Source: Zingiber officinale
Taxonomy: Eukaryota; Streptophyta; Magnoliopsida; Zingiberales; Zingiberaceae
DNA length: 64,000 nucleotides
Assembly: GCF_018446385.1 (NCBI RefSeq)
Contig: NC_056001.1
Coordinates: 109,346,436-109,410,435, forward strand
Reading direction: 5' to 3'
The position numbers and the translations under genes were made by a program. Shown here piece by piece: positions 1,908 to 44,158 of this stretch; within the stretch, counting starts at the first letter, position 1; the number at the start of each line of letters is the position of its first letter. A model generated the notes under the pieces. That model was not told the origin of the DNA, did no database searches, and was given only the letters and a program-made list of their open reading frames with translations.

Positions 1908-3032
1908 TCACACGACTTCAAGAAGTTTGGGGAGTTTATCTTTGTAAGGGAAGACAAAGCTCTGCAAGAATTTTGAACTCGGCAATGAGAAAAAGTTTTG
2001 TATCTTGATTTTCGAAGTCCATAACCCTTCAGATTTCAATATCTTCATCAATTGAAACCGAGGAATTGACCTCTTTTCCAAACTAAATGCTAAAACGATT
2101 GGGTGGTTAGCAATCTCAGAAGGTTTAATTTCAACATCCTTGATAAAAAATTCCATCTTCCTCTGCAATAGCTCTGTGGAATGCCATAAAAAGGTTGGGC
2201 GTTTCATGAATGCAGCAATGAAATCCGAGTTCGACCAACCAAAGCTGTGCATGAGCTTTACTTGGGCCTCAAATTTCTCCTTGCTGACCCCGTGCAGCAC
2301 ATCAAGGATCCTGAGGAACATCTTAGATTTCCGGGAAACTCCAATCCCCTCAGCTCTATCTACCAAAGCCCGGAGGGATTCAGGATTCTGCACTATGAAG
2401 CCGGGGTGCATTTTAAGGACAAGGGAAACCCTGTCTTCAGGAATTCCACATTCATCCCGTAAGAAGTTCAAGTTAGGGCGTACCACATTCTCAATGCTGG
2501 TGCTCATAAACCTATTACAGCTCCGGAGTTTCCTGAGGAGGATCTCCCTCGATCCAAATAAACTTTCCCAAACCTTCAATCTGGGGAGAAGCGTGTTCTG
2601 GACGTTGAGGGAAAGAATGATGGGGTGCAGCATAACGACATTGACGGCGTCGGACTCAGAGAACCCCATGTCGCGTAAAAAATTGAACTTATGAGCGAGG
2701 TTCGTCTGCACATCGCAGCCGAGCAATGTTGGTTTCCAAGTTATTAGCTTTCTGAGATTAGAGTCATCAAGGCCCTGGGATCTGAGAAATCCAAGAACGG
2801 CGTCAGCCTTCTCGGCGGACCGAATACGGGGGAGCGACTTGGAGACCTTGGAAGCATCGTCGGCGGAGAAGCCGCATGTATTCACGAGGTACTCAACAAG
2901 GAAGTGGGGATCGGTAGAAGCGGTGGTGGCGACTGAGGAGGAGGCGGAAGCGCCGGTGGAGAAGAAGAGACGACGGAGTCGGATCGATGGAAGGAGCGCA
3001 TGGCGGCGGACTAGGGAGTGCAGGTGAAGCAT
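1908..3032 (-). CDS. mTERF family protein, organelle-targeted (array copy 1)
   Basis: The predicted protein is 374 aa, single exon. mTERF proteins are helical-repeat nucleic-acid-binding proteins acting in organelle transcription, splicing or RNA stability. The N-terminus (MLHLHSLVRR, then RRLFFSTGAS) is basic and Ser-rich with no acidic residues, like a mitochondrial presequence. From about residue 45 to 345 come degenerate ~30-aa helical repeats with the typical spaced Leu/Pro pattern (for example FGSREILLR, RDECGIPEDRV, FLWHSTELLQRKMEFF). The reading frame stays open upstream, but only via a GTG; the ATG at 3032 matches the starts of the other two copies. By eye it differs from copy 3 at roughly 27 positions. 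Its promoter diverges from the other copies about 65 bp upstream of the ATG, where a Mutator-like element begins. Family assignment is firm; the individual target is unknown. Confidence 0.9.
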   Translation of the reverse strand: MLHLHSLVRRHALLPSIRLRRLFFSTGASASSSVATTASTDPHFLVEYLVNTCGFSADDASKVSKSLPRIRSAEKADAVLGFLRSQGLDDSNLRKLITWKPTLLGCDVQTNLAHKFNFLRDMGFSESDAVNVVMLHPIILSLNVQNTLLPRLKVWESLFGSREILLRKLRSCNRFMSTSIENVVRPNLNFLRDECGIPEDRVSLVLKMHPGFIVQNPESLRALVDRAEGIGVSRKSKMFLRILDVLHGVSKEKFEAQVKLMHSFGWSNSDFIAAFMKRPTFLWHSTELLQRKMEFFIKDVEIKPSEIANHPIVLAFSLEKRSIPRFQLMKILKSEGLWTSKIKIQNFFSLPSSKFLQSFVFPYKDKLPKLLEVV

Positions 3033-3086
3033 CACGACGGCCGACCAGGTAAGCTCGCCACGAATGTAGCGCACAGACCAAATCGC

Positions 3087-3095
3087 AAACCCTAA
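3087..3095 (-). promoter_or_regulatory. Telo-box upstream of mTERF copy 1
   Basis: AAACCCTAA on the plus strand (TTAGGGTTT in gene sense) lies 55 bp upstream of the start codon and is kept at the same place in all three intact copies. Telo-boxes are common in plant genes for organelle biogenesis. Homology to the other promoters ends just beyond it. Confidence 0.55.
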
Positions 3096-3104
3096 TTTTA
3101 AAAA

Positions 3105-3218
3105 GGGCGAATTATATTTTACCCCCTGAGGTTTGGCTAAAGTACGAAAATGATTCTCGTGATTTCAAAATTAACAAAAAATCCCTTGACTGATGGACAA
3201 TAGGTAAAAATAAGAAAA

Positions 3219-3257
<39 letters not shown>

Positions 3258-5747: not shown

Positions 5748-5749
5748 AG

Positions 5750-5761
5750 TGTTATCAGAGC
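5750..5761 (+). other. Primer-binding site, initiator-Met tRNA type
   Basis: TGTTATCAGAGC differs by one base from the common Copia primer-binding site TGGTATCAGAGC and begins two bases after the 5' LTR. Confidence 0.8.
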
Positions 5762-8284: not shown

Positions 8285-8858
8285 ATTGCATTTTACCTCG
8301 GACTAATATTTTTTTCAGGTTTTGAAAAAACAAAGGTCCGGGCGCCCGGGGGTCTGGGCGTCCGGAAGGGATTCGGGCGCCTGGGATGCAAGTTTTATCC
8401 CCAACGCACTTCGCCACGTGGAGCTTCATGGTTGGACGGGCTACGTCACACTCCAGGCGGTTGGAAGGGATCCGAGCGCCCGAAGCTTCCTATATAAGGA
8501 GGATGCACCCTGGAGAAAAGAACAACGAACAACAAAGCCTTCCAAAGCTTGCTCTGTCGTGTTGTGCTCTTGCGACGCCGCGAAGCAACTCCGACAACGT
8601 GCTGCGTTTATTTCTTTACTATTGTCGGTATTTTTTTTTTTAAAAGTTCTTGTATCTTAAATTTGTAATCGAATTTTTAAACTGTTAGTGGATTGCCCAA
8701 CGAAAACACTCGACGAGTGCGGACCTTGGAGTAGGAGTCGACCAATGCTCCGAACCAAGTAAAAAATAACTTGTGTTAGCGCTGTGTTTTTTCTTTTCCG
8801 TTGTGCACTCGATTTTCAACGAATTTCTAAATCGATATTCACCCCACCTCTATCGACA
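8285..8858 (+). repeat. Partial 3' LTR of gag-only element 1
   Basis: It aligns with 5186 to about 5731, including GGGCGCCC words, TATA box and the GATATTCACC segment near the LTR end. It lacks the first part of the LTR and the terminal bases. Confidence 0.85.
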
Positions 8859-8861
8859 TTT

Positions 8862-9247
8862 GAGTCATACACCGTTCTATCAAACTCCAAGGCATTCAGG
8901 TTATATACCGTGCCCCCACTCTCCAAGACATTCAGGTCATACACCGTACCTCCACTCTTTAAGGCATTCGAGTCATATACCATGCATTCAAATTCTAAAG
9001 CATTCGAGTCATACATAATGCCTTCACTCTCCCTGGCATTTGGGTCATACACCGTGCCTCCACTCTCCAAGACATTCGGGGCATACACCATGCCTTCAAA
9101 CTCTAAGGTATTTAGGTCATGCACCATGCCTTCACTCTCTAAGGCATTCGGGTCATACATGGTGCCTCTACTCTCCAAGGCATTCAGCTCATACACCGTG
9201 CCTCCACTCTCCAAAGCATTCGGGCCATACACTGTGCCTTTACTCTC
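8862..9247. repeat. 36-bp minisatellite (class A of the giant LTR)
   Basis: About ten to eleven degenerate units of the form GGCATTCGGGTCATACACCG plus 16 more bases. Because 36 is a multiple of three, frames stay open on both strands and give 12-residue peptide repeats; these are not taken as genes. The class recurs at 47828-47985. Confidence 0.9.
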
Positions 9248-9254
9248 CAAATTT

Positions 9255-10715
9255 AAAGTCCAGACTCTTGTGTAGTATGACCGAGTTATAAGCGAGTCTG
9301 CTCTTATACTTGTCCAAGAGTTTCGTGTTTCTAGATCGAGTTATAAACCAATGTGCTCTCACGCCTGTCCTAGACTCTCGTACTGCCTGAACGAGTAATA
9401 AACGAGCCTGCTCTCTTGCCTGTCCCAGACTCTTGTGCTGCCTAGTCGAGTTATAAGTGAGTATACTCTCACGTTCCAAGTTCTAGACTCTTGTGTCGCT
9501 CAGTCGAGTTATAAGCGAGCCAGCTCTCCCCTCTATATTTCAAACTCTAGTGTCGCTCGACTAAGTTATAAGAGAGCATGTTCTCGCGCCTATGTCCCTG
9601 ACTCTCGTGTCGATTAGCCAAGTTATAAGTGAGTCTGCTCTCACGCTTATGTCCCAGACTCTCATGCCATTCGCCTGAGTTATAAGCAAGCATGCTCTCG
9701 CGCCTATATTCTAGACTCTCATGCCACTCGACAGAGTTATAAGCGAGTCTACTCTCGCTCCTATGTCCTAGACTCACATGTCGCTCGACCGAGTTATAAG
9801 CGAGCATGCTCTTGTGCCTATGTTCCAAACCCTTACCACAGCTGTGAGTTATAAGCGTGCACGACTCACGCACCAAACAACCATCCGACCAACTGTTCTA
9901 GACTCTCGCCACAGCTGCGAGTTATAAGCAAACATGACTTTCGCGCCCAATGACCATCCAGTCGATTGTTGTAGACTCTCACATCAGCTACAAGTTATAA
10001 GCGAGCAAGGCTCTCATGCCCAATGATCATCAGGTCAGCTATTCAAGACTCTCGCTTCAACTATGAATTATAATTGAGCATAGCTCTCATGCCCAACGAC
10101 CATCCAGTCAGTTGTTCTAGACTCTCGTCTTAGTTGCGAGTTATAAACGAGCATGACTCTCGGGCCCAACAACCATCCAGTCGGTTGTTCCAGAATCTTG
10201 CCTTAGCTACGAGTTATAAGTGAGCATGACTCTTGCGCCCAAGGATCATCCGGTCAGCTGTTTCAGACTCTCGCATCAGCTGTAAGTTATAAGCAAGTAT
10301 GGTCCTTGCGCCCAACAATCATCAGGTTGACTGTCCCAGACTCTCGCCATAACTTCAAGTTATAAGCGAGTATGCCTCTTGCACCCAATAACCATCCAGT
10401 CGGTTGTTCCAGACTCTCGCCTCAGCTGCAAGTTGTAAGCTAGTATGACTCACGCCCAACGACCATTTAGTCGGTTGTTCCTGACTCTCACCATAGCTGC
10501 GAGTTATAAGCGAGCATGACTCTCGCGCTCAACGACCATCTGGCGTACTGTCCCAGACTCTCGTCATAGTTGTGAGTTATAAATGAGCATGACTCTCACA
10601 CTCAACCACCATCCGGTCAACTGTTCCAGACTCTCGCCTCAGCTGCGAGTTATAAGTGTGCATGTCTCACGTGCCCAACGACCAGCCAGTCGATTTTTCT
10701 TGACTCTTGTAACTT
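9255..10715. repeat. 57-bp and 73-bp minisatellite (class B of the giant LTR)
   Basis: The core CGAGTTATAAGCGAGCATG recurs about every 57 bp in the first part (to about 9830) and then about every 73 bp, where each unit has gained a segment like CCAACGACCATCCAGTCGG. The longer unit thus looks derived from the shorter one by insertion followed by amplification. Confidence 0.85.
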
Positions 10716-10719
10716 ATTC

Positions 10720-11240
10720 ACTTGGACATTACTCCCAATATCAATTCACTTGGGCAGGGCTCTCAATAGCAATTCACATGGGCATAACTCCCACCTGCTC
10801 GACATCCCTTACATATCGCCGCCCGCTCGACACTTACAAATCACCGCTGGTTTGACACTTCTTACAAGTCATCACTAGATCGACACTTCTTACAAATCGT
10901 CATTGGTTCGACACTCCTTACAAATTGTCATTGGCTCGGCACTCCATACAAATTTCCAATGGTTCGACACTTCTGACAAATCATTGTTGACTCGCTACTC
11001 CTTACATATTGCCGCCCACTCGGTACTTAAATATCATTGCCCATTTGGCATCCCTTAAATATCGTCGCTCGCTCGACATCCCTTACATATCTCCACCCAC
11101 TTGGAACTTACATATCGCCACCAGCTCGACACTTCTCACAAATCGTTGCTGGATCGACACTTACATATTGCTGTCCGCTCGACATTTCTCGTATATCGCC
11201 TCTCGCTCGGCACTCCCAGCGTATGATAGCTTACTCTGCA
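10720..11240. repeat. ~28-bp repeats (class C of the giant LTR)
   Basis: Degenerate units of the type CGACACTTCTTACAAATCG recur, many with CTCGACA or TTCGACA. Copy boundaries are ragged. The 11240-11550 stretch that follows is unique sequence. Confidence 0.7.
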
Positions 11241-11554
11241 TTTTTTCTGTTGCTAGCTCGGCACCATCATGCGTCGCTCCATTTTCCTCGCCTCACTAGC
11301 CGCTAGCTCGATGTTATACGACAGACTTAGCAATCTGATTTAGTAGTCAAAAGTGATTTATCTTTTACGATAGGCTATCTAGTCCGGAGGTGTCAGTCGG
11401 GTTAGCGCCTCCTTCGACTAGACTGGAGGGGAGACTTGTGATATTGCGCGTTGTGGGTAGCTTCATAGGTAATGTGGGGGTGATAGTCAAGATGAAGTGA
11501 AAGTCTAAGTTAAGGTGAGGTGGTGGTCAAAATCAGAATGTACATATATGAACA

Positions 11555-12540
11555 AACCACTTCCCCTAGGCATGGCTCCCAGTCTACAGCCTATCGGACC
11601 CAGAGCCGGTTGGATGCCCAAGGCCCAATTTCCCACTTCTCCTAGGCAGGGCTCCCAGTTTACATCCGCCCGACCTCAATACCGGTCAGACCTCTATGAC
11701 TCATTGCCTCGAACCTCTTAGGCACGACTCCTAGCATACATCCGTCCGACCCCCAACACCAATTGGACCTCTAGGACTCAGTGTCTCACTCCTTCTGGGC
11801 ATAACTCCCAGAATACATCAGTTTGGCCTCCAGCGCCGATCGAACCTCCAGAACTCAATTTCTCGCTCCTCCTGGGCACAACTCCCAGGATACATCTGCC
11901 TGGCCCCCAGTGTTGGTCGGACCTCCAGGATTCAATTCCTTGCTCCTCATGAAAACGACTCCCAGTTTATATCTTCCTAGCCCCAGCGTCGGTCGGACCT
12001 CCAGACTCATTGCTTCGCTCCTCTTGGGCACGAGTCCCAACATATATCTGCCCAACCCTAGTGCTGGTCGGACCTCTTGGACTAAGTGACTCGATCCTCT
12101 TTGGCATAGCTCCCAACATACGTTCACCCGACCCCAACACCGATCGGACCTTCAGGACTCAGTTCCTCGCTCCTTGTGGGCATGACTCTCAGCATATATT
12201 TTGATTGGTCCCTAGTGCCTGTCAAACCTTCAAAACTCAGTTCCTCGCTCATCATGGGCACGATTCTCAACATACATCTGCTCGACCCCAATGCTAGTCG
12301 GACTTCTAAGGCTCAGTTCCCCACTTTTCATGTACATGACTCCCAGCACACATCCATCGGTCAGCCCCAGCATCAGTCGAACCTCCAGGACTTAGCTTCC
12401 CACTTCTCATGTGCAAAGCTCCTAGTCTACCGTCGGTCGTCCCCAGAGCCATTCGGAGATTCAAGACCCAATTCCCCACTTCTCATGTGCAAAGCTCCTA
12501 GTTTTCAATCGGTCAACCCCAGAACCGATTGGACTCCCCT
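11555..12540. repeat. ~76-bp repeats (class D of the giant LTR)
   Basis: Around thirteen degenerate units share GGGCACGACTCCCAGCATAC, then CCGACCCCAACGCCGGTCGG and a CTCCAGGACTCAGT-type join. The same class fills 44975-45720. Confidence 0.85.
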
Positions 12541-12977
12541 TGGGAGACAACACTATTAAGAAATCACAACAACCTGTCAAAGAATAACGATTACTCATTA
12601 GAGAATATTCTATTACTCAAGCATATACATGCAAAAGAACCTTCCTTCTCCTAAAGGGAGGTTGTTGTACACCCTCTACCATCTGACATATTCTGACATT
12701 CGACATATTCTGACGTCTTGTTACTGGGAGGTTATGAGAGATGGTATCAAAAGGGGGATCCTCTTCATTGACCAAGCACGCTAGGCTATGCACACTCACA
12801 CACACGCATCCACATTTATTATTTTACTATTCATTTAACGTTTTTGTTGGTTCTGCCTTGGTGTGCATAAGTCTACAGCTCCTAGCTGTAGGGTCGCAAC
12901 TCCCAGCTCGAAGTCCTTCCTCCATCAACATTCCTCCTCACTGGCCACCTATCTAACTCAGTTTTCGGACAGAATTA

Positions 12978-17418: not shown

Positions 17419-18567
17419 TCAAATAAATTTGCAGTTTGGATTATGCCCCTTCACTTCAGCAAGTTTGGGGAGTTTATCTTTGTAAGGGAGAACAAAGCTC
17501 TGCAAGAATTTTGGATCCGGCGATGAGAAAAAGTTGTGTAGCTTGATGTTTGAAGTCCATAACCCTTCAGATTTCAATATCTTCATCAATTGAAACCGAG
17601 GAATTAACCTCTTTTCCAAACTAAATGCTAAAACGATTGGGTGGTTAGCAATCTCAGAAGGTTTAATTTCAACATCCTTGATAAAAAATTCCATCTTCCT
17701 CTGCAATACTTCTGTGGAATGCCATAAAAAGGCTGGTCGTTTCTTGAATGCAGCAGTGAAATCCGAGTTTGACCAACCAAAGCTGTGCAAGAGCTTGACT
17801 TGGACCTCAAATTTTTCCCTGCTGACCCCGTGCAGCACATCAAGGATCCAAAGGAACATTTTAGATTCACGGGGAATTCCAATCCCCTCAGCTCTATCTA
17901 CCAAAGCCCGGAGGGATTCAGGATTCTGCACGATGAAGCCGGGGTGCCTTTTAATGACACGAGAAACCCGGTCTTCAGGAATACCACATTCATCCCGTAA
18001 GAAGTTCAAGTTAGGGCGTACCACATTCTCAATGCTGGTGCTCATAAACCTATTACAGCTCCGGAGATTCCTGAGGAGGATCTCCCTCGATCCAAATAAA
18101 CTTTCCCAAATCTTCAATCTGGGGAGAAGCGTGTTCTGGACGTTGAGGGAAAGAATGACGGGGTGCTGCATAACGACATTGACGGCGTCAGACTCAGATA
18201 ATCCCATTTCCTGCAAAATTTTAAACTTCTGAGCGAGGTTCGTCTCCACATCCCAGCAGAGGAATCCTGGTTTCCAAGTTATTATCTTTCTGAGATTAGC
18301 TCCATCAATGCCGTGAGATCTGAGAAATCCAAGAACGGCGTCGGCCTTCTCGGCGGACCGAAAACGAGGGAACGACTTGGAGACCTTGGAAGCATCGTCG
18401 GCGGAGAACCCGCATGCATTCATGAGGTACTCGACCAGGAAGTTGGGATCGGGAGAAGCGGTGGCGACTGAGGTGGTGGCGGAAGCGCCGGTGGAGAAGA
18501 AGACGCGACGGAGTTGGATCGATGGAAGGAGCGCCTGGCGGCGGACCAGGGAGTGAAGGTGAAGCAT
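17419..18567 (-). CDS. mTERF family protein, organelle-targeted (array copy 2)
   Basis: 382 aa, single exon, start ATG at 18567 in the same context as copies 1 and 3. The presequence (RRVFFSTGAS) and helical repeats match the family. It is the most divergent of the three intact copies, particularly around FKILQEMGLSESDAVNVVMQHP and the first repeats. The C-terminus is altered: where the others end LPKLLEV or LPELLEVL it reads LPKLAEVKGHNPNCKFI, consistent with a small deletion that shifted the frame and borrowed a new stop. This adds about nine residues beyond the family end and probably leaves the repeats intact. It likely functions in organelle gene expression; its specificity cannot be read from the sequence. 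Confidence 0.9.
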   Translation of the reverse strand: MLHLHSLVRRQALLPSIQLRRVFFSTGASATTSVATASPDPNFLVEYLMNACGFSADDASKVSKSFPRFRSAEKADAVLGFLRSHGIDGANLRKIITWKPGFLCWDVETNLAQKFKILQEMGLSESDAVNVVMQHPVILSLNVQNTLLPRLKIWESLFGSREILLRNLRSCNRFMSTSIENVVRPNLNFLRDECGIPEDRVSRVIKRHPGFIVQNPESLRALVDRAEGIGIPRESKMFLWILDVLHGVSREKFEVQVKLLHSFGWSNSDFTAAFKKRPAFLWHSTEVLQRKMEFFIKDVEIKPSEIANHPIVLAFSLEKRLIPRFQLMKILKSEGLWTSNIKLHNFFSSPDPKFLQSFVLPYKDKLPKLAEVKGHNPNCKFI

Positions 18568-18631: not shown

Positions 18632-18650
18632 TTGAAAAGCTCTTCACTTC

Positions 18651-18659: not shown

Positions 18660-21454
18660 TTCACATTTGTCCCCCTATATGTTCCGTATTTTCTTAAGGC
18701 TACCCATCAATTTCAGTTTTGCGTTACATACCAGAAAGAAAAAATAGCAAAAATTAAAAAAACCTGCTCCTTTAAATATTTAAGGTTCCATTTATTTTGC
18801 ATAAAGTTTTATACTCATATAAAATAGTCTGCAAAACTATTATTTTTTTTTTTTATATAAAATATCCTTTATTTTCCAAACCCCATAGCTCGTTATACGT
18901 TTTCCCTAAATTACATAGGTGTTTTGGGAATGTTCAATAGCATAGCTTCAGCTTCCTGTGGGTTCCTTTTTTATTTTACCCTTCTTAAAAATCGTTGGTG
19001 CTTCTCACGTGCGTTTGAAGCAAAGACCATTTCGAATTGTGCTAACACGTTCTCGGAGAAAGCGACTTTTAGCCTAACCAAAGGCAACGGTCAACGAACG
19101 GTGCATCTTATTTTTCGACAAACAGTGATCTTCTATTATGCAAAAACATATGAATATTTTTCGAAGAGCTGGCGGTGAATATTTTTTTGACGAATGGTGC
19201 AACTTCTTGTTAGACAAAACGAAGAACAAAACATTAGTTAAAATCGTTGCTCCGATGGAATTTCATATTTAGCAAACTTTTCAGTTTATTGTACGTGGAA
19301 AAGGTTATTGGAGAAAACCTAACAAACATAGCTATAGTGCAACCTTTTCTCCTCATAAGACAGCTGCTCTTGACCACACACGTCTCCCTCCTGACCATGA
19401 AGTTGAAAGGTTTGTCAGTTCTCTGTTATTGTATTAGGAAAGTGTACAAGTGAGAGGTTGGCCGCCAGGTGTAAGCAACTGTAACGCCAGATTAAAAAAT
19501 TTCAAGTACTCATTAAGTTCTGTCAATCAACATTTCAAATAATCTATAAACCGTGTAGGCGATGTTAACATCTCAAATAGCCCTTACTAATATTACAGTT
19601 GGGTACAACTTTGTTATATTCATCTAATGTTTTTTTTTATCATTATAGAAAAACTAATTACAATATTAGTGATAGTTGAAATCATAGTGTAAGAGAAGTT
19701 TTAAGCTCTGATAAATCTTGTGAACAATATATATATTTTCTTCTACTAATCCATAAATAAATTAATCCGATGTATAAATTAACATTATATGTAGCAAGTT
19801 GTAACAAAAGAGTGATTACGCTCAACTCATGCGCCTTTCATAGTTCATCCTCAGATTATATAAAAGGAGGTAAATTATGAGATCAACTTATAATTGACTG
19901 CCAAGTTGATTAGGGTGGAAGGAGTTTTTTTTTACGAGGACATATGCCTATTAAAAATTGATCTCTTATCCCATTATAATAAGTCTGTCACTCTTTAACC
20001 AACTGAACATCCCATGAAAATATACATTAATATTATATCAACCTCACCAATATGATTTAGTAAAATGTTAATTATCTTGTATTATTAATGCTATCTTGAC
20101 TTTATTGTCAATCTTTTTTGTATTAAAAAATTAATTTATAATACCTTGAATTAATCAATAAATCATATGGTTACGAGTTTAAAGTTGCTTGTTTGTAAAA
20201 TATTAAATTTTAAAATGTGTAACTACAAGTTTAGAAATATATGATGATCTATTGACTTCCTTCACTTGACTAATGTGCTATAGAAATATTATTGTTATTT
20301 ACAGTTACATCAATACATAAATTCATTTTATGATGAAGTGCGTTCACGTAAAATGAAATTGATTGATCCACAAAAACAAGACTGATTTGATGATGATACA
20401 CCAACCATAAATACCAATAGAAACAAAATGTCATCTTCCACTTCTCTTATTATGTTGAGTACTGAAGAGTATGAATTATATATACAATTTAATAAAAGAA
20501 ACTGTTAGTATTGAATATGTTATCGGCAAGAGTATCTAGAACAAATGTTTGAAAACACATGGACTCAGCTAGAATATTAAAATAATAAAATGCTAGTTGA
20601 AATTCAGAAATTGAAAGGGATGTATCTATTAATGAATTTATAGCGAATAATATAAACTATTCAATAAATCTACCAATGATATTGAATGAATATAATGATC
20701 TTGAAAAAATATTTTAATTAGCTAAAGATGATTATATAATAAACTCAACACTTATTGTGTCACAAAGGCAAGAACCAGACGAGAGTGATGGATTTTTTTA
20801 TTAGTAAAGCAATGTAAAATTTAATATGTAATAAGTAAATTTTATTTTTAAATAGTGGAATGAATTTTTATTTACTTTTCATAATATAATTTACATCCAA
20901 TTGAAGGATGTAATTTATTTTTCTTTAATTTTCAGATTTATAATATAATTTGCATTCACTTGAAATAGTAATGTAGTGCATTTTTACTATCAATACTTAT
21001 GTAGGTATGCTCAATCCAAAAATATTTTAAATATGCATTTACTATCCAAAAATATTTTAAATATGCATTTACTGAAATATGCTATGAAAAGATGGGTGGA
21101 CTTGAAAAAAAATCAGAATTAAAATAATTTATAATGAAGAAAATTGCACATCAACAATAATTAAAGGGAGAAATAGAATTGACTGTACATTTTAAAACAC
21201 ACAATGTCTTCTATTTTGCAAGGAGTTCCACTGACCAGTTCCTAAAATAAGTGCTTTGCAAGTCAAAAGCACCCTCATGTTTGAATTAGCAGTTAAATTT
21301 ATAATTGACGCACTAGGAAATAATAAACAAACCATATGAAACTAGAACAGGAATGGTTCAATATCATTGCTTATTCAGAAAAGAAACTCATACCCAAATA
21401 AACCCTTCAATTGTTGGATATTCCTCTCAAACTCAGCTACAACTCACAAGATTT
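18660..21454. repeat. Duplicated mTERF spacer, copy B
   Basis: 18660-20900 matches 34020-35735 with many substitutions and indels; 20530-21454 matches the first part of 1-1707. It is AT-rich and shows no gene. A short direct duplication (CCAAAAATATTTTAAATATG) lies at 21016-21070. Confidence 0.8.
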
Positions 21455-22938: not shown

Positions 22939-22955
22939 CTTGCCTCCCCTTCAAG
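22939..22955 (-). other. Polypurine tract of the Tat element
   Basis: In element sense AAGGGGAGGCAAG lies immediately before the 3' LTR start TGATCCGG, the expected place for plus-strand priming. Confidence 0.8.
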
Positions 22956-26549: not shown

Positions 26550-26672
26550 ATTAAGGCTAATTTTGCCACTGCCGTTCGGCGAAGCTATTTGTCATCCTTT
26601 AATTATTTCTGCTTCCTGCATTACAGGGACATAGGCGGCCAAAACATATATAAAATTACATCAGCGCACCTC

Positions 26673-27424
26673 TCACCCAGCTCGGTACGGCTGAAGATGA
26701 TTCGCGCTCCATGGTCGATCTAGCTGTCGCCCGTCTTCATCCTCCAAATAATAAGCACCTGAACGAAGCTTCTCGATGATTTTGAAGGGGCTTGCCCAAG
26801 GAGTTTCTAGCTTGCCGACGTCACCGACTGACTTTACTTTCTTCCAGACAAGGTCGCCGACCTGGAATGATCTAGGGATTACGCGCCGGTTGTAGTTTTG
26901 CTTCATCTGTTGCCGGTACGCCATTAGCCGGACGGACGCCTTGGCTCGCTCCTCATCAACCAAAACCAGCTCTATGTTCCTCCGCTCGGCGTTGCCATCA
27001 TCATAATTCTGGATCCGGACGGACTCAACGCCGACTTTGACAGGAATCACCGCTTCGCCGCCGTACACCAGATGGAAAGGTGTGACGTCCGTTCCTTCCT
27101 TTGGGGTCGTTCGGATGGCCCATAGGACGTCCGGCACTTCATCCATCCAACTTCCTCCTAGATGGTCGAGCCGAGCGCGCAAAATACGAAGAATTTCCCG
27201 ATTGGCTATTTCGGCTTGACCATTGCTTTGGGGGTATGCCACGAACGTGAAGTGTTGCTCAATGCCATAACTTTTGCACCAATCTTCGAGCAACTTTCCA
27301 GTGAATTGTCGTCCGTTGTCGGAAACAAGTCGGCGAGGGATGCCGAACCGGCAGATAATATGTTGCCAGATAAACTTCTTGACCATATGCTCGGTGATCT
27401 TGGCTAGCGGCTCGGCCTCCACCA
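26673..27424 (-). pseudogene. Integrase C-terminal part, Tat element pol
   Basis: This frame carries the second catalytic Asp (LVSDNGRQF) and the Glu-containing motif (NGQAEIANREIL) of the integrase core, then the C-terminal DNA-binding part (GDLVWKKV, then WASPFKIIEKL). It should be continuous with the upstream pol frame, but a one-base deletion at about 27422-27426, within the SKW/VEAEP junction, puts the two in different frames. Confidence 0.92.
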
Positions 27425-30400
27425 CTTAGAAAAATAATCGACCGCCACCAGTAGAAATTTCCGCTGCTCGGTCGCCATGGGAAACGGACCCACAATATCC
27501 ATTCCCCATTGGTCGAACGGACAGGACACAGTAGCTGCTTTCATTTCCTCAGCCGGTCGGTGTGAGAAATTATGATACTTTTGGCAAGAAAGGCACGTCG
27601 ACACGGTCCGAGCGGCGTCTGCTTGCAGGGTTGGCCAAAAGTATCCGGCCAGCAGGATCTTCTTAGCCAGCGATCGTCCACCCTGATGCCCCCCGCACGA
27701 TCCTTGATGCACTTCCTGGAGGATGTACACCGCGTCTTCCGAGCTCACACATTTCAATAGCGGGCGGGAGAAAGCCTTCTTGTAAAGTTGGTCTCCAATA
27801 AGCATGAACCGATCGGCTCTCCTCCTTAATTGCTGGGCTGCTTCCCGATCAGATGGTGTTGCCCCCGATCGAAGAAACTCCATGATGGCTGTTCTCCAGT
27901 CGCTCGGAAACTCGAGGCCCTCCATCCGATCGACGTGCGCTACCAGAGATACTTGCTCAATAGGCTGTTGGATGGCGACCGACGTTATTGAACTTGCGAG
28001 TTTAGCTAACTCATCTGCAACCTGGTTTTCCGCTCGGGGTATCTTTTGAATAATGACCTCTCTGAAATCGGCCTTAAGCTTTTCAAAGGCTTCGGCGTAG
28101 AGTTTGAGCCGAGCGTTGTTAATCTCAAAGGTACCAGAGAGCTGCTGAGCGGCCAACTGAGAGTCTGAATGCAGCATCACCCGTCCGGCCCCTACATGCC
28201 GAGCGGCCTGTAAGCCGGCTATAAGGGCTTCATACTCTGCTTCATTATTCGTAGCTCTATAATCAAGCCGGACGAATAGATACATCTTTTCTTCTTGGGG
28301 TGAAAACACTAATACACCAATACCGCTCCCGAGCCGAGTGGCCAATCCGTCCACAAATATCTTCCACATGGCTTCGGGTTCTGGCCTTTGTACTTCGGTG
28401 ACAAAATCCGCCAAGGACTGCGCCTTTATGGCCGATCGGGGCTGGTATTGGATGTCGAATTCGCTTAACTCCGTTGTCCATTTGATGAGCCGCCCGGACG
28501 CTTCGGGATTCAACAACACTTTTCCCAGTGGGCTGTTCGTTCGGACGATGATAGTGTGAGCCAAGAAATAGGGCCGGAGGCGCCGAGCGGCGAGGACCAA
28601 AGCGAAAGCCAGCGTCCCGAGCCCAGTGTAGCGAGATTCAGCATCTTTTAAAATATGGCTCAGAAAATACACAGGCTCTTCTCCGTTCGCCCTCACTAGT
28701 GCCGAGCCAACTGCTTGTTCAGTTGAAGATAAATAAATACAAAGTGGCTCACCCGTAGTTGGCTTGGCTAGCACAGGCAGAGAGTTCAGGTATGCCTTCA
28801 GATCTTCAAACGCCCGATCACATTCTTCGTCCCAGTGAAACTTAGTGGCTTTGCGCAAGATTTTGAAAAATGGGAGACTCCGATCGGCGGTCTTTGAGAT
28901 GAATCTGGACAATGCTGTTATCCGACAGGTCAAGCGCTGCACTTCCCTCAGATTTCTCGGGTGCGGCATATCTTGTAATGCTTTCACTTTGCTGGGATTT
29001 GCTTCGATGCCCCGCTCAGTCACTATATATCCCAAGAAACGCCCGCCTTTTGCTCCGAACAAGAACTTCTGAGGGTTTAGCTTGACTCCATATTTCCGTA
29101 GCGTTCGGAAAGTTTCCTCCATGTATTCGAAGAGATCGGCCGCTCGGACGGACTTGATGAGAATGTCGTCCACGTATACTTCCAGATTTCGCCCGATCTG
29201 CTCCTTGAACACTTTGTTCATCAAACGCTGATATGTGGCTCCCGCGTTCTTCAATCCGAACGGCATCACATTATAGCAATAGGTGCCGTCGGCTGTAACG
29301 AAACTGACTTTTTCTTGATTTTCTCGGGCGAGCGACACTTGATAATAGTTTTGGTAAGCGTCGAGCATACATATCAACTCGCAGCCAGCTGTGGAGTCCA
29401 CCAGTTGATCGATCCGAGGCAGAGGATAAAAGTCTTTCGGGCAAGCTTTGTTGAGATCCCGAAAATCTATGCATACTCTCCACTTGTTGCCTGGCTTGGA
29501 GATTAATACTACGTTCGCCAGCCAACTTGGGAACTGAACTTCGCGTATATGGCCGGCCTCCAGAAGCTTCTCAACCTCCGCCCGGATGACGACATTCTGT
29601 TCAGCGCTGAAATCCCTTTTTCTTTGCTTCACCTGCCGAGCGTCCGGTCGGACATGTAGCTCGTGCTGTGCTATACCCGGTGAAATTCTGGGCAGCTCAT
29701 GCGTTGACCAGACGAAGACATCACGGTTTCTCTGGAGGCATTTGATCACTTCCTCTTTCTGGTTGGTCTCCAGATCGGCCGCAATGAACGTTGTGGCCTC
29801 CGATCGGGTCGGGTGAATCTGCACTTTCTCTTTTTCTTCATAAACCAAGGAGGAAGGTTTTTCAGTTATAGCGTTCACCTCGATTCGTGGCGCCTTCCGA
29901 GCGGCATTGGCTTCAGCTCGGACCATCTCGACGTAGCATCGCCGAGCTGCCAGTTGATCTCCTCGTACTTCTCCCACCTTGTCTTCTACTGGGAACTTGA
30001 TTTTCTGGTGGAAGGTGGAGACGGCCGCTCGGAACTCACTTAGAGTCGGTCGTCCCAATATGACATTGTACGCCGACGGAGAGTCAACGATGACGAAGTT
30101 TGCCGTCCGCGTCCTTCTGAGTGGCGCCTCTCCCAGCGATATGGCCAGCCGGATCTGTTCGACCGGCTGAACTTCATTGCCCGTAAACCCGTAAAGGAGG
30201 GTTATCATGGGCAGCAGCTCGGCTCGGTCAATTTGTAGTTGATCGAAGGCCTTTTTGAACATGATGTTGACCGAGCTTCCCGTGTCAATAAAAACGCGAT
30301 GTATTGTGTAATTGGCTATTACCGCTTTGATGAGAAGAGCGTCTTCGTGGGGGACTTCAACTCCTTCCAAGTCCCTGGGCCCAAAACTGATTTCGGGTCC

Positions 30401-30799
30401 ACTTGCTCGTTCCTGGCTGCAACCGACCGCATGGATCTGGAGCTGCCGGACGCTCGCCTTCCTTGCTCGGTTAGAGTCACCCCCGGTCGGCCCACCAGCA
30501 ATAATGTTGATCTCGCCTCGGGAAGTATTACTTCTATTTTCTTCTTCCCGAGCGGACGATCGGGGTCGTTCCCTAGACATCCGGAGATTCTCCCGCCTAG
30601 GAGAGCGATGTCGCTCGGGAGTCTGTTGTTGTCGCCTGTCAACTATCGCCCGATCGGCTTCACGAGGCCTCTGTCGCCTGTCGGCTGATGGCGATCGATG
30701 ATCGCCACTCTTGGGGACGGGGTGGGCGATGAGAGGAAGACTCCGGCAATCCCTGGTGTTATGTGTGTCCGTCCGGTGGAAGGAGCAGAACATTGGGGT
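27404..30799 (-). pseudogene. Pol polyprotein of the Tat element: PR, RT, RNase H (two), integrase N-part
   Basis: 1129 codons from the first Met at 30793. In order: a zinc-knuckle-like CSFHRTDTHNTRDC (residues 3-16); protease with DTGSS (170-174); reverse transcriptase with FRDLNKACPKDFYPLP (about 444-459), PFGLKNAGATYQ and YVDD (540-543); a Gypsy RNase H; a second RNase H with VDG, NNEAEYEA, HSDSQ and NQVADELA; and the integrase HHCC zinc region (H-x-GGH then C-x2-C in CLSCQKY) with the first Asp in WGMDIVGPFP. The frame ends because of the one-base deletion near 27424. The frame is continuous with gag except for the TGA at 30800-30802, so gag and pol form one translational unit in this family. 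Confidence 0.93.
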
Positions 30800-30802
30800 T
30801 CA

Positions 30803-31817
30803 TTTCTTCTTTGGCTTGGGCCGAGCGGCAGCTACCTCTTGCACGTGGGACCTTGCATGGGGGGAGCGGATTGCTTCGGCTCTCGGTCCTCTGGGTGGCT
30901 GATGAGCAACGTGCGACTTCCGTTCAGTAGGAGGAGCCCGCTCGGTTGGAGTTTCTTTTTTCCGGGCCGCTTGGGCTTCCTCCACGTTGATGTATTCGTT
31001 GGCCCGGTGTAGCATGTGGTCGTAGTCCCGGGGCGGTTTCCGAATGAGTGATCGGAAGAAATTCCCATCCACGAGGCCTTGTGTGAAGGCATTCATCATG
31101 GTCTCCGAGGTGGCCGTTGGAATATCCATGGTCACTCTGTTGAACCGCTGGATGTAGGCTCGGAGCGATTCGCGGGCTTCCTGTTTGATGGCAAACAGAC
31201 TAACACTGATTTTTTGATAGCGTCGACTGCTTGCGAAATGGTGGAGGAAGGCCGTTCGGAAGTCTTTGAAACTCGAGATAGATCCATCCGGCAATCTCCG
31301 AAACCACCGTTGGGCTGATCCCGAAAGGGTGGTAAGAAAAACTCGACATTTCACTCCATCTGTGTACTGATGAAGAGTGGTCGTGTTGTCGAACTTACCC
31401 AAATGATCCTCCGGATCGGTGGTTCCGTTGTACTCACCGATCGCTGGAGGCACATAATGCTTGGGCAGGGGGTCCTGTAGAATAGCCTATGAAAATTGAC
31501 GGTTGATCCGCTCGGGAGAGGCGTCCGTTCGGGGGGCTTTCCCTTTTTTATCTCGTCTTGGCATTTCATCCAAAGAAGATCCCCGATCCCGATTAGTCGC
31601 TGCGGCTTCAGGAGTGCGGAATAGGGCCCGATGGAATGCAACTGTGGCCTGCGGTGCTTCCTCTCGACCGCCTGATGCTGATGTTGCTTGCTGCTCCGCC
31701 CCGCTCGGCTTGTGACTTTTGTCTCTGTTCCATAAGCTTGGCAGCTCTTGTCTCGATCAAAGCGTCGAGCTCCTCTATGGAGAGCATCACTGAATGCTGT
31801 CGTCCAGCCTCGTCCAT
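30803..31817 (-). pseudogene. Gag of the Tat element, broken
   Basis: A likely start is the ATG at 31817 (MDEAGRQHSVML, IEELDALIE coiled coil). The capsid-like Retrotrans_gag domain is clear (GVKCRVFLTTL, AQRWFRRLP, FRTAFLHHFASSRR, ESLRAYIQRFNRV). Breaks are a frameshift around 31590-31680, an in-frame TAG at 31487-31489 and an in-frame TGA at 30800-30802 just before the knuckle. Both stops are one C-to-T step (in coding sense) from a sense codon. Confidence 0.88.
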
Positions 31818-31844
31818 TGTTTCCGATCGGATGCAGGAGCGTTC

Positions 31845-31861
31845 CCACAAACGGCGCCAAA
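31845..31861 (-). other. Primer-binding site of the Tat element
   Basis: In element sense TTGGCGCCGTTTGTGGG begins two bases after the 5' LTR end. This is the GGCGCC-type primer site common in plant Tat and Athila elements. Confidence 0.85.
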
Positions 31862-31862
31862 T

Positions 31863-32612
31863 TGATCCTGTCCGAAAGCTGAATCAACGGACGCCCGGAC
31901 CTTCGGTGAACCTGCACAGAAGTCGGGCCAGGAAGGGGTTCCCGACGACGACCCTCCGACGCTCAAGTCAGGCAAAGCTCAACAAGAAAGTGGCTCCAAG
32001 AATCGTAGAATGCATACCTCCGGCGAAGGGTGAGGGCCTTTATATAGGGCTGTGGAGGAGCGAGTGCACACATACCGAGGTGTACACGTGTCCTTCCCCA
32101 TACCGTAGTATGGGCTTGTTAGAGGAGCTTACCTGACACCATACTGCTACAGTTTGAGCACGTCTCTGATGGGACAGCGGATCCTTCTGTCGTAAGATTT
32201 GGAGTATGGCCAGATTATAGAGCATGCCCGTTGTCAGATGTCCTTTTCTACTTACTCCCTGCCGAGCGTCCGGCCGGCCAGCACACGCCTTGCGTCCGGC
32301 CGGTCACATAGCGTGATCTACTTGGGAGATTTCCGGTAAGGTGCTCTGTGGAGACCGTTAGCAGTATGTCACCTTATGTCTTCGGCCGAACGTGTCATCC
32401 GCTCGGCCTTACAATCCTATTCAATGAGCGTCGGAACCCTGCCTCTTGCCGGGGCGCCTTTTGTCATCTGTTAGTCACCGGTCGGCCGGCCGGACGGTCG
32501 GCCCATCCTTCTCCGGTCGGCCCATCCTTCTTCTATCGACCACCTGATCCTTTGACTTTCTCGTGGTGTTGACTCCCCAGAACGGGGGTCCCTTGTTCTT
32601 ACCGCCGGATCA
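31863..32612 (-). repeat. 5' LTR of the Tat element
   Basis: 750 bp, TGATCC...GGATCA in plus orientation, with TATA box at 32039-32046 (TATATAAA on the minus strand). It lacks ~55 bp near its left end that the other LTR has, and has extra GGCCGG-rich segments near 32270-32300 and 32505-32520. Confidence 0.92.
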
Positions 32613-32816
32613 CTGCTAATGCAAATCAATTTGCAAAATGGAACTCGGAAAACCTAGCATTCTCATGTCTACAATAACAGTTATAAATAATAGAGCATGA
32701 AAACTACAATAAAGATTAGCTCAATATCATTGCTTCTACATCATAAAATAACATGCTCAAATAAATCCTTACATTCATTTGCAGTTTGGATTATTCACCT
32801 TTAACTCAGCTACAGC

Positions 32817-33938
32817 TCACAAGACTTCAAGAAGTTCGGGGAGTTTATCTTTGTAAGGGAGAACAAAGCTCTGCAAGAATTTTGGACCAGGCAATGAGAA
32901 AAAACTATGTAGCTTGATTTTTGAAGTCCATAACCCTTCAGATTTCAATATCTTCATCAATTGAAATCGAGGTATTAACCTCTTTTCCAAACTAAATGCT
33001 AAAACGATTGGGTGGTTAGCAATCTCAGAAGGTTTAATTTCAACATCCTTGATAAAAAATTCCATCTTCCTCTGCAATAGCTCTGTGGAATGCCATAAAA
33101 AGGTTGGACGTTTCTTGAATGCAGCAATGAAATCCGAGTTCGACCAACCAAAGCTGTGCAAGAGCTTGACTTGGACCTCAAATTTTTCCCTGCTGACCCC
33201 GTGCAGCACATCAAGGATCCAAAGGAACATTTTAGATTCACGGGAAATTCCAAACCCCTCAGCTCTATCTACCAAAGCCCGGAGGGATTCAGGATTCTGC
33301 ACTATGAAGCCGGGGTGCATTTTAAGGACAAGGGAAACCCTGTCTTCAGGAATACCACATTCATCCCGTAAGAAGATCAAGTTAGGGCGTACCACATTCT
33401 CAATGCTGGTGCTCATAAACCTATTACTGCTCCGGAGATTCCTGAGGAGGATCTCCCTCGATCCAAATAAACTTTCCCAAACCTTCAATCTGGGGAGAAG
33501 CGTCTTCTGGACGCTGAGGGAAAGAATGATGGGGTGCAGCATAACGACATTGACGGCGTCGGACTCAGAGAACCCCAAGTCGCGCAAAAAATTGAACTTA
33601 TGAGCGAGGTTCGTCTGCACATCGCAGCCGAGCAATGTTGGTTTCCAAGTTATTAGCTTTCTGAGATTAGCGTCATCAAGGCCCTGGGATCTGAGAAATC
33701 GAAGAACGGCGTCAGCCTTCTCGGCGGACCGAATACGGGGGAGCGACTTGGAGACCTTGGAAGCATCGTCGGCGGAGAAGCCGCATGTATTCACGAGGAA
33801 CTCGACAAGGAAGTGGGGATCGGTAGAAGCGGTGGCGACTGAGGAGGAGGCGGAAGCGCCGGTGGAAAAGAAGAGACGGCGGAGTTGGATCGATGGAAGG
33901 AGCGCATGGCGGCGGACTAGGGAGTGAAGGTGAAGCAT
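32817..33938 (-). CDS. mTERF family protein, organelle-targeted (array copy 3)
   Basis: 373 aa, single exon, start ATG at 33938. The layout matches copy 1: basic presequence with RRLFFSTGAS, then helical mTERF repeats to about residue 345 and the end LPELLEVL. It differs from copy 1 mostly by scattered substitutions. The differences are not confined to the presequence; several fall in repeats (LRDLGFSESD against LRDMGFSESD, FLWILDVLHGVSREKFEVQ against FLRILDVLHGVSKEKFEAQ). Its 3' flank contains the Tat insertion at 32612, about 200 bp beyond the stop, so the transcript end may now lie next to the element's 5' LTR. Confidence 0.9.
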   Translation of the reverse strand: MLHLHSLVRRHALLPSIQLRRLFFSTGASASSSVATASTDPHFLVEFLVNTCGFSADDASKVSKSLPRIRSAEKADAVLRFLRSQGLDDANLRKLITWKPTLLGCDVQTNLAHKFNFLRDLGFSESDAVNVVMLHPIILSLSVQKTLLPRLKVWESLFGSREILLRNLRSSNRFMSTSIENVVRPNLIFLRDECGIPEDRVSLVLKMHPGFIVQNPESLRALVDRAEGFGISRESKMFLWILDVLHGVSREKFEVQVKLLHSFGWSNSDFIAAFKKRPTFLWHSTELLQRKMEFFIKDVEIKPSEIANHPIVLAFSLEKRLIPRFQLMKILKSEGLWTSKIKLHSFFSLPGPKFLQSFVLPYKDKLPELLEVL

Positions 33939-33992
33939 CGCGACGGCCGACCACGTAAGCTCGCCACGAATGTAACGCAGAGACCAAATCGC

Positions 33993-34001
33993 AAACCCTA
34001 A
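33993..34001 (-). promoter_or_regulatory. Telo-box upstream of mTERF copy 3
   Basis: AAACCCTAA (plus strand), 55 bp upstream of the ATG, as in the other copies. Confidence 0.55.
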
Positions 34002-34019
34002 TTGAAAAAAGGCTTTTCA

Positions 34020-35734: not shown

Positions 35735-36672
35735 ATTTTAAATATCTCCATCACATGAAATCGAGGAATCAATCTATTTTCCAAACTTAATCTTAAAGGC
35801 AACAGTGGTAAGCAATGTCTAGAGGTGCAATCCCAACATCCTTGATTAAAAAAATTCCATCTTCCTGTGCAATGCCTTTGTGGAACTCCATAAAAAAGTT
35901 GGATGTTTCTTGACTGCTCTAATGAAATCAGAGTTCGACCAACCAAAAGTGTTCATGAGCTTAATTTGGGCCTCAAAATTTCCTCTGCTGACCCGTGCAA
36001 CACAAAAAGGATCCAGAGGAACAACTCGGATCCTCTGAGAATTCCTATCCCGTCAGCTCTATCTACTAGGCATCGGAGGGCATCAGGGTTTTGCACGATG
36101 AAACTGGGGCAATACCACATTCATCCCACAAGAAGTTCATGTTGGGGTGCACTACATTCTCAATGTTGTTGCTAAAAAACCATCCACTCCTCCGGAGATT
36201 CTTGAGGAGGATCTCCCTCAATCCAAATAAATTTCCCCAAGTCTTCAATTTGAGGAGAAGCGTGTTCTAGCTCTTGAAGCCAATAACCATATAGGGTGCA
36301 TCTGAACGACATTGATGATGTCCGATTCAGATAATCCCATTTCTTGCAAAATTTTAAACTTTGGAGCGAGGTCCGTCTCCACATCCCAACCGAGCAATCC
36401 TGGTTTCCAAGCTAGTATCCTTCTCAGATTAGTCCAAGAACAGAGTCGGGATTCTCGATGGACTGAATATGAGGGAGCAACTTGAAGACCTTGGAAGCAT
36501 CATCGGTGGAGAAGCCACATGTATCCACAATCACAAGGTACTCGATCAATAAGTGGAGATCAAGAGAAGCGGTGACGCCTGAGGAGGAGACGGATGTGCT
36601 GGTGGAGAAGAAGACACGGTGGAGTTGGGACGAAGGAGGGAGGGATTAGCGGCGAACCAAGGATTGAAACAT
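35735..36672 (-). pseudogene. mTERF pseudogene 1
   Basis: The start region at 36672 and the presequence part (36540-36670) are recognisable, then blocks such as KTWGNLFGLREILLKNL and VHPNMNFLWDECGI. The repeats are interrupted by several frameshifts and by an internal deletion that removes the part after DECGI. The 3' end keeps RLIPRFHVMEI. It is decayed well beyond function. Confidence 0.85.
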
Positions 36673-41222: not shown

Positions 41223-41544
41223 ATTTCTTCTTGCAACAAATTCTGCATGCGTGAACATTTTAGATGCAAAGCATTATGGAATTTGGCAAGTCAAATTAGC
41301 TTTCTTAAGAAAAGAAAAAAAAAAATGGCAAGCCAACATTGTGTCACCATAGTGCCCAGTTCCCAGGTGCCATCCATTTATAAGACCTGACCAAGAATCC
41401 CTTTGTGTCAGTGGCCGTCTTCACTGGAGCATGAAAACTACAATAAAGATTAGCTCAATATCATTGCTTCTACGTCATAAAATAACATACTCAAATAAAT
41501 CCTTGCATTCATTTGCAGTTTGGATTATTCACCTTTAACTCAGC

Positions 41545-42511
41545 TACAACTCACAAGGCTTCAAGAAGTTTAGGGTGTTTATCTTTGTAAGGGAGAACAA
41601 AGCTCTGTAAAAAAATTTGGACCAGTGATGTGAAAAATCTATGTAGCTTGATTTTTGAAGTCCATAACCCTTCAGATTTCAATATCTTCATCAATTGAAA
41701 TCGAGGAATCAACCTCTTTTCCAAACTAAATGCTAAAACGATTGGGTGGTTAGCAATCTCAGAAGGTTTAATTTCAACATTCTTGATAAAAAATTCCATC
41801 TTCCTCTGCAATGCCTCTGTGGAATGCCATAAAAAGGCTGGACGTTTCTTTATTGCAGCTGTGAAATCTGAGTTCGACCAATCAAACCAAAGCTGTGCAT
41901 CAGCACAGCTTGACCTGGGCCTCAAATTTATCCTTGCTGGTCGCGTGCAGCACATCAAGGACCCAGAGGAACATCTTAGATTTCCGGGGAATTCCAAGCT
42001 CGCCAGTTCTATCTGCCAGAGCCCGGAGGGCATCTAGGTTATGCACGATGAAGCTGGGGCGCCTTTTAAGGACAAGAGAAACTCGATGTTCAGGAATACC
42101 ACATTCATCCCGTAAGAAGTTCAAGTCAGGGTATACCACATTCTCAATGTTTGTGTTCATAAACCTGTTATACCTCTGGAGATTCTTGAGGAGGATCTCT
42201 CTGGATCCAAAAAGACTTTCCCAAACCTTCAATCAGGGGAGAAGTGTGTTGCGGATGTTGTAGGAAACAAAGATAAGGTGCAGCATAACGACATGGACAG
42301 CATCGGACTCAGAGAACCCCATGTCGTGCAAAAATTTAAACCTTGGAGCGAGGTTCATCTCCACATCACAGCCGAGCAATCCTGGTTTCCAAGCTATTAT
42401 CCTTCTCAGATTAGCTCCATCAAAGACCTGAGATCTAAAAAAAATCCAAGAATGGCGTTGGACTTCTCGGTGGGCTGAAAACGGATGAGCGACTTCTCGG
42501 TAGCCCAGCAT
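41545..42511 (-). pseudogene. mTERF pseudogene 2
   Basis: Three frames carry consecutive mTERF blocks: 42233-42511 (LRRIIAWKPGLLGCDVE), 41900-42232 (KVWESLFGSREILLKNL to FVHNL-like DALRALADR) and 41551-42033 (GWSNSDF equivalent to the end). The presequence is missing. A short duplication (CAATCAAACCAAAGCTGTGC region, 41877-41910) and frameshifts separate the frames. Confidence 0.85.
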
Positions 42512-43090
42512 ACATCTGACTTTGCTTGAAAACAGTGGGGAAAATCGCCTTCATAATTCTAATAGACAAATATCTTCTTATTAGGAATTCAACAAATCCT
42601 TTTTAACTCAATCAAGTTGCAAAATGGAACTCAGAAAGACTAACATTCTCATGTTTACAGTAGCAATGGCATGTATGATATAGAATATGAAAATTAATAA
42701 TGGTTTCTCTATAATCTTGGCAGATGGGTATTGTTTTCAGGCTTAAATCCAATTCTACTTGTCAAAGGGGACAAAAATCGACTTTGATGATTCTTAAAGA
42801 CAAATATCTTCTACTTGGAAGGAGTTCAATTGATAAGGTCCTACAAGAAATCCATTTCAACTCAATCAGATTGCAAAATGGAACTCAGAATACCTAGCAT
42901 CCTCATGCCTACAATAACAGTTACATTCATAGTATAGAATATGAAAACTGCAAGTAAACCATATAAAACTACGACAAGATTGGTTCAATATCATTGCTTA
43001 TGCCGTCTTAAAATCAAACCTATGTAAATCTTGCATTCATTAGCAGTTTGGATAATTCCCTTTGAACTCAGCTACAACTCACAAGACTTC
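42512..43090. other. mTERF spacer with repeated 3' flanks
   Basis: A phrase TTGCAAAATGGAACTCAGAA occurs twice (near 42615 and 42871), each followed by CTAACATTCTC or CTAGCATCCTC. These are two successive mTERF 3' flanks, indicating a further gene copy lost between pseudogenes 2 and 3. No gene remains. Confidence 0.6.
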
Positions 43091-44158
43091 ATGCAGTTTG
43101 GGTAATTTATCTTCGCAAGGGAGCACATACTGCTTCAAAATTTGGACCGGATGAAGAGAAAAATTCATGTAGCTTGTTTGTTAACTTCCCTAACCCTTCA
43201 GATTTCAATATCTCCATCACACTAAATTGAGGAATTAATCTCTCTTCCAAACTTAATATTAAAGGCATCGGGCAGTAAGCAATGTCTGACGGTAAAATTT
43301 CAATATCATTAATTAAAAATTCCATCTTTCTCTGCAATAACTATGGAAAGGCTTAAAAAAGTGTGGACATTTCTTGAGCGCAGTAAGGAAATCTAAATTC
43401 GACCAGCCAAAATTGTTCATGAGCTTGACTAGGGCCTAAAAATTTTCCCTGCTCAGCACAAAAAGGATCCAGAGGAACATTCAAGATCCTCAAGGAACTC
43501 TAAGCCCGTCAGTTCTATCTACCAGAGTCGGGAGGACATCTGGGTTCATCACGATGAAGCTCGGATGTCTTTTAATGGCAAGAGAAATCCTCTTTTCAGG
43601 ATTACCACATTCATACTCGATGTTGTTGCTCATAAACCTGTTAAAACCTGTTACACCTTCGGAAATTCTTGAGGAAGATCTCCTTGGATCCAAAAAGACT
43701 TTGCCAAACCTTCAATCTGGGGAGAAGCGTTTTCTGGGCATTGAGAGAAAGAATGATGGGGTGAAGCATAACACTATTGATGGCGTCAGACTCAGAGAAC
43801 CCCATGTCGCGCAAAAAATTGAACTTCGGAGCGAGGTTCATCGCCATATCATAGCCGAGCAATCTTGGTCTCCAAGTTATTAGCTTTCTGAGATTAGCGC
43901 CATCAAGCCCTGAGATATGAAGAATCCAAGAACGGCATCAGCCCTCTCGGTGGACTGAGAGAGGGGGAGCGACTTCGAGACCTGGGAAGCATCGGTGGCG
44001 GAGAACCGCGCATGTATCCACGAGGTACTCGACCAAGAAGTGTGGATCGGAGAAGGGGCGTGGCTTGAGGACGAGATGGAAGTGCCGGTGGAGAAGAAGA
44101 TGCGACGGAGTTGGGTCGAAGGAGGGAGGGCATAGCGGCGGAACAAGGAGTGAAACAT
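43091..44158 (-). pseudogene. mTERF pseudogene 3
   Basis: The start ATG at 44158 and a presequence with RRIFFSTGTS are kept, then mTERF blocks in shifted frames (KFNFLRDMGFSESDAINSVM, KVWQSLFGSKEIFLKNF). A deletion removes part of the middle (around 43440-43620) and the 3' end reads RKMEFLINDIEI in another frame. Several frameshifts make it non-functional. Confidence 0.87.

Follow-up and report, generated by a model that had tools for sequence, protein, structure and literature searches.

Proline-phased diversifying selection in a tandem array of mTERF genes of ginger (Zingiber officinale)

Does a cluster of mTERF genes in ginger form a rapidly diversifying system of the kind known from fertility restorers, and where in the encoded proteins does the diversification fall? 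The question is raised by a 64,000-nucleotide stretch of the Zingiber officinale genome (C16:109346436-109410435; "the window" hereafter means the whole of this stretch), which contains eight mTERF copies, three intact and five degraded, every one on the minus strand. The initial annotation regarded them as a possible rapidly diversifying, restorer-like cluster and as the best candidate for an undescribed biological system. The reading favored here, with somewhat better than even confidence, is that the window belongs to an array of the RFL-mTERF type in which target specificity is diversifying under nuclear-mitochondrial conflict.

The eight window copies stand at one end of an approximately 1-Mb tandem array whose mTERF genes lack introns. 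A genome search with intact copy 3 (coordinates in Table 1) returned at least 110 matches, including at least 35 at C15:134.277-135.257 Mb and at least 33 at C16:109.343-110.314 Mb that make up the main array, with 68 of 68 on the minus strand; these match counts are lower bounds, the degraded window copies being missing from the list, and the cluster counts were made by hand. A count of mTERF genes in the adjoining sequence, proposed as a check in the initial annotation, showed that the array reaches far past the window, with 30 near-full-length copies on C15 and 31 on C16 (at least 360 of 373 residues and stop-free; 61 in all), of which 54 were read and all 54 had an open frame. The three intact window copies belong to the mTERF family, scoring 119.7, 144.7, and 119.9 bits (copies 1, 2, and 3) against Pfam PF02536, for which the cut-off is 23.1. 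The annotated total of eight copies, three of them intact, is correct for the window, but only seven lie inside the interval 1908-44158 to which they were assigned; the relic at 968-1252 lies outside it.

Large clusters that vary in copy number are a trait of RFL-mTERF loci, and the ginger array is such a cluster: reciprocal best partners on C15 and C16 form 19 pairs, and the remaining copies have no such partner. Four mTERF gene pairs outside the array on homologous chromosomes have a synonymous divergence (dS) of 0.014-0.022 and a ratio of nonsynonymous to synonymous divergence (dN/dS) of about 0.09-0.39, and their low dS is consistent with homologues of the C15/C16 type being two haplotypes. 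Two array genes, at C15:134397026 and C15:134432583, are identical across 370 aligned codons and have no one-to-one C16 partner; they either duplicated very recently or were duplicated in the assembly. More distant mTERF clusters, large or small, are found on C3/C4, C9/C10, C11/C12, C13/C14, and C19/C20. No PPR cluster was found beside the array among the matches listed (150 of 5313 candidates scored), in which the nearest PPR_2 matches are at C15:137.05 and C16:111.36 Mb, more than 1 Mb off. High-scoring PPR_2 matches crowd C3:11.2-15.4 Mb and C4:9.4-12.8 Mb, on two chromosomes where an mTERF array also lies, at roughly 3-4.7 Mb, and these PPR_2 clusters are possible RFL-PPR arrays.

Array paralogues trade segments. 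When the coding alignment is cut into thirds, the three resulting trees reject each other and the whole-gene tree in the approximately unbiased (AU) test, and strongly supported conflicting split pairs number 8, 13, and 12; because of this exchange, site tests of selection need care. Site models were fitted to 53 distinct main-array sequences over 370 codons, with branch lengths fixed from model M0 and site posteriors obtained by naive empirical Bayes, using a script checked solely against the IQ-TREE M0 likelihood (both -12705.59). Omega (dN/dS) under M0 was 0.745. On one tree, model M2a improved on M1a with a likelihood-ratio statistic (2dlnL) of 120.6 and an omega of 2.7 at 11% of sites; with separate segment trees the statistic was 146.0 (three trees) and 144.6 (six trees). 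Sites called at an M2a posterior above 0.95 numbered 18 with one tree, 17 with three, and 21 with six. A recombination-aware null, simulated in 20 replicates on three segment trees with zero positive selection and analyzed on one tree, gave 2dlnL values of 0.9-30.6 and 0-5 called sites (mean 1.05), every replicate falling below the 120.6 and 18 sites observed. Exchange inflates the M2a/M1a test, yet the inflation is well short of the observed size, and the strong diversifying selection across the array is robust to separate segment trees. Pairwise dN/dS among copies 1-3, a comparison also proposed in the initial annotation, was 0.43-0.60, so that positive selection is not visible among the window copies alone. 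Diversifying selection at certain motif positions of RFL-PPR proteins was reportedly described by Fujii et al. in 2011, and diversifying selection is likewise found in this array.

Within the array, this selection is position-specific around the conserved proline of the mTERF repeat. Six repeat prolines of copy 3 (P67, P100, P136, P209, P278, and P310) were used as anchors, of which P67 is below 80% conservation in the array and the other five reach it; offsets -2, -1, +1, and +4 around these anchors define 24 positions, and -2, -1, and +1 define 18. With six trees, mean omega at -2, -1, +1, and +4 was 2.21, 2.36, 2.30, and 2.37, whereas no other offset between -14 and +15 exceeded 1.24, and with three trees the four means were 2.0-2.4. 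The 18 positions hold 9 of 18 called sites with one tree, 8 of 17 with three, and 10 of 21 with six (p 1e-7 to 1e-9), and the -2/-1/+1 set ranks first among 373 circular shifts on the main array. Since the offsets were picked from main-array data, and human MTERF1 was looked up later, only the tests on the C19/C20 and C11/C12 arrays are independent. In the C19/C20 array, whose 10 copies share about 60% identity with copy 3, 2dlnL is 25.5 and the same offsets rank 1 of 373. In the C11/C12 array (6 copies, with K replacing the first anchor proline) the four-offset set ranks 2 of 373 and the other two sets rank 3 of 373. Amino-acid differences within the 19 C15/C16 pairs are modestly enriched at the 24 positions (20 of 456 versus 102 of 4769 elsewhere, p 0.004), and 43 distinct 24-residue sets occur across 54 copies.

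Human MTERF1 reads bases through arginines R162, R202, R251, R350, and R387 (PMC4705650). Counted by eye on alignments, R162 is at P-2, R202 and R350 are at P+1, R251 is at P+9, and R387 is four residues after W383 (a position also taken from PMC4705650), so that four of the five fall on the selected offsets and the fifth at +9; the set of MTERF1 contact offsets (-2, +1, +4, +9) ranks 1 of 373 when applied to the main array. The best structural matches found with Foldseek were MTERF1-DNA complexes. In a sequence search against solved structures, the array profile matched MTERF3 (E 3.5e-6) and not MTERF1. MTERF1 was also recovered with a non-array ginger mTERF as the query.

Among the window copies, copies 1 and 3 share the same residue at each of the 24 putative base-reading positions, though they differ at 26 of 310 other positions (residue 40 onward). 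Copy 2 departs from the two of them at 7 of the 24; copies 1 and 3 may keep the same specificity and copy 2 another. The near-identical presequences described in the initial annotation are present in copies 1 and 3, which differ over residues 1-40 by one substitution and a one-residue indel, but not in copy 2, where 5 of 40 residues are unlike those of copy 3, roughly its overall rate. This divergence, together with a mean omega of 1.01 across the 20 leading aligned codons, spoke against special conservation of the presequences. In copy 3, residues 1-39 include many R, S, and L and no acidic residue, a composition that suggests an N-terminal organelle presequence in each gene, and the proteins of the array are probably mitochondrial. 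Antisense open frames of 184 amino acids lie on the plus strand at the same place opposite each intact gene (2140-2694, 17678-18232, and 33049-33603) and are probably a by-product of codon use.

Copies in the array are born, decay, and exchange segments, and the favored reading joins these processes to the phase of selection. Each protein would consist of an organelle presequence followed by a superhelix of mTERF repeats that, judging from the family, binds nucleic acid. Unequal exchange would create and break copies while paralogues swap segments, and selection would favor amino-acid change at base-facing repeat positions (-2, -1, +1, and +4 from the conserved proline) that may determine target specificity. 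The proteins would act on mitochondrial DNA or transcripts. What drives the change may be a recurrent conflict with mitochondrial open reading frames (ORFs) that themselves change and are probably selfish or of the sterility type, a cause also put forward for RFL-mTERF and restorer-like PPR genes. The rapidly diversifying, restorer-like cluster of the initial annotation is therefore upheld as a description of how the genes evolve (in a large array, with copies gained and lost, paralogue exchange, and strong diversifying selection), and restorer function is not part of that support. A wider proposal, put forward tentatively and at slightly less than even confidence, is that mTERF repeats bear a modular recognition surface at -2, -1, +1, and +4, similar to the PPR code, and that RFL-mTERF arrays are libraries of specificities left by long mitochondrial conflict, beyond the grasses and even in a sterile clonal crop.

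Several results weigh against diversification of target specificity under conflict. The signal is weak in the window-end clade alone (12 copies; 2dlnL 7.5, rank 6 of 373), the 41 array copies outside it giving 125.6 and rank 1 of 373. When the 24 positions are dropped, 66.6 of the 146.0 units of 2dlnL remain, and selection is therefore not confined to those positions. By segment, M0 omega on the 24 positions is 2.5, 0.57, and 2.25 (8 codons each), exceeding 1 in two of three segments. The C11/C12 array has a nonsignificant 2dlnL of 3.1 and zero called sites, and the ratio of nonsynonymous to synonymous haplotype differences, 20:4 at the 24 positions versus 102:45, is likewise not significant (p 0.12). 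The AlphaFold model is poor, with a mean predicted local distance difference test score (pLDDT) of 51.5. Cultivated ginger is also sterile (PMC8342452), so fertility restoration cannot be a present use of the array, and the selection signal would be an inheritance from sexual ancestors.

Of the other explanations, the one that survives best, though itself rather unlikely, is adaptive tracking without sterility genes, in which the proteins process or stabilize ordinary mitochondrial transcripts and their specificities chase fast-changing intergenic and untranslated-region (UTR) sequences, with no selfish ORF involved. Other plant mTERFs do act in splicing, RNA stabilization, and tRNA maturation (PMC4005652, PMC10226603), and the selection pattern is compatible with any change of target; the size of the array, its copy differences between haplotypes, and its resemblance to RFL-mTERF loci at wheat and rye restorers (PMC10226603) nevertheless suit an arms race better. 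Ordinary birth and death, with relaxed tandem duplicates many of which become pseudogenes and nothing adaptive, would account for the decay of five of the eight window copies, for the overall omega of 0.745, and for the values of 0.43-0.60 among the three window copies. It is highly improbable, as relaxation does not yield an omega of 2-3 at recurring structural positions, a pattern replicated in a second array, and 61 near-full-length frames remain stop-free. That exchange, strong as it is, with each segment rejecting the other trees and simulated exchange without selection lifting 2dlnL up to 30.6, produced false positive selection through a wrong tree is scarcely credible, since the observed statistic and number of called sites beat all 20 replicates (maximum 30.6 and 5 sites), the signal persists under separate segment trees, and there is no reason for exchange to track the repeat phase (rank 1 of 373).

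The duplicated spacers reported in the initial annotation are real and form part of two larger units in the window (Table 1). Three blocks recur, 4-757 with 20537-21267 (89.8% identity), 789-1705 with 21268-22163 (93.6%), and 1703-3106 with 32612-34012 (95.7%). The insertion that splits the second unit is read, from its repeats and domains, as a retroelement of the long terminal repeat (LTR) type, and the homologous C15 site lacks it, being empty at 134306091-134306093. Its terminal repeats differ in 33 of 723 columns plus gaps, a divergence that exceeds the allelic coding dS of about 0.02 elsewhere and falls within the regional haplotype identity of about 93-98% (among listed matches of at least 93%). 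Tandem units of 65 bases, about 97% alike, lie within the retroelement at 26158-26549. Elsewhere in the window, short-period repeat blocks are common to 8842-12834 and 45111-47987.

Table 1. Features of the window, in window coordinates
Feature	Position	Strand	Remarks
Duplicated unit A (spacer, relic, and copy 1)	4-3106		Recurs at 20537-34012
mTERF relic	968-1252	-	C-terminal piece with stops; within duplicated spacer 789-1705; before the 1908 start
Intact mTERF copy 1	1908-3032	-	Single exon; 374 aa counted from ATG; listed ORF begins further upstream, at GTG
Intact mTERF copy 2	17419-18567	-	Intronless; 382 aa
Duplicated unit B (spacer, relic, and copy 3)	20537-34012		Split by insert 22164-32611
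mTERF relic	21447-21993	-	Two frames; within duplicated spacer 21268-22163
10.4-kb insertion	22164-32611		Terminal direct repeats 91.4% alike; reverse transcriptase and integrase domains
Intact mTERF copy 3	32817-33938	-	Intronless; 373 aa
Broken mTERF copy	35737-36666	-	Two-frame pieces, stops
Broken mTERF copy	41554-42442	-	Two-frame pieces, one stop; first 80 residues unmatched
Broken mTERF copy	43082-44155	-	Two frames, numerous stops

Clusters of this kind have been described before, and the idea of an undescribed biological system must be given up: the RFL-mTERF clade of expanded, clustered mTERF genes is already named, and its evolution has been likened to that of restorer-like PPRs (PMC7759465; PMC10226603). 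PMC10226603, which uses the name, states that their part in restoring fertility has yet to be worked out and places RFL-mTERF loci over mapped restorers in wheat and rye. Maize has 31 mTERFs (PMC3981765), and Arabidopsis has nine within a 70-kb tandem region (PMC3471360). Neither the ginger array nor selection on the base-reading residues of mTERFs came up in the literature searched, subscription papers and supplements lying outside that search. As far as the searches show, the kind of array is known, and what is new is the proline-phased selection and the candidate mTERF recognition surface that it outlines. How mTERFs choose their targets is an open question in the literature found, and the ginger arrays offer a short list of selected positions; these match most base contacts of the human crystal structure, which makes the code hypothesis directly testable. 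The array would extend RFL-mTERF-type arrays outside the cereals, and its many natural variants are on offer for building designable organelle binding proteins.

Among the closest known systems is the RFL-mTERF clade of wheat, rye, and barley, which shows the same clustered expansion. Such arrays are known mainly from cereals, whereas ginger is a non-grass monocot likened to them by cluster features rather than by phylogeny, and its array is best classed as a likely RFL-mTERF-type array outside the grasses; the mapping of selection to base-reading repeat positions in ginger has no counterpart in the available portions of the RFL-mTERF accounts (PMC7759465, PMC10226603). Barley Rfm3, with two linked mTERF genes (PMC7154926), and rye Rfp, with four mTERF genes nearby (PMC8035072), comprise few genes with a known fertility association, whereas the ginger array has about 30 near-full-length genes per haplotype and is known from sequence alone. 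Human MTERF1 bound to DNA (3MVA and relatives) is about 16% identical to the ginger proteins and binds duplex DNA, whereas the ginger target may be RNA. RFL-PPR arrays likewise consist of clustered genes for organelle repeat proteins, and the conflict with mitochondrial genes is the one proposed for ginger; they are built on a different type of repeat, PPR and mTERF proteins having no sequence similarity according to PMC10226603.

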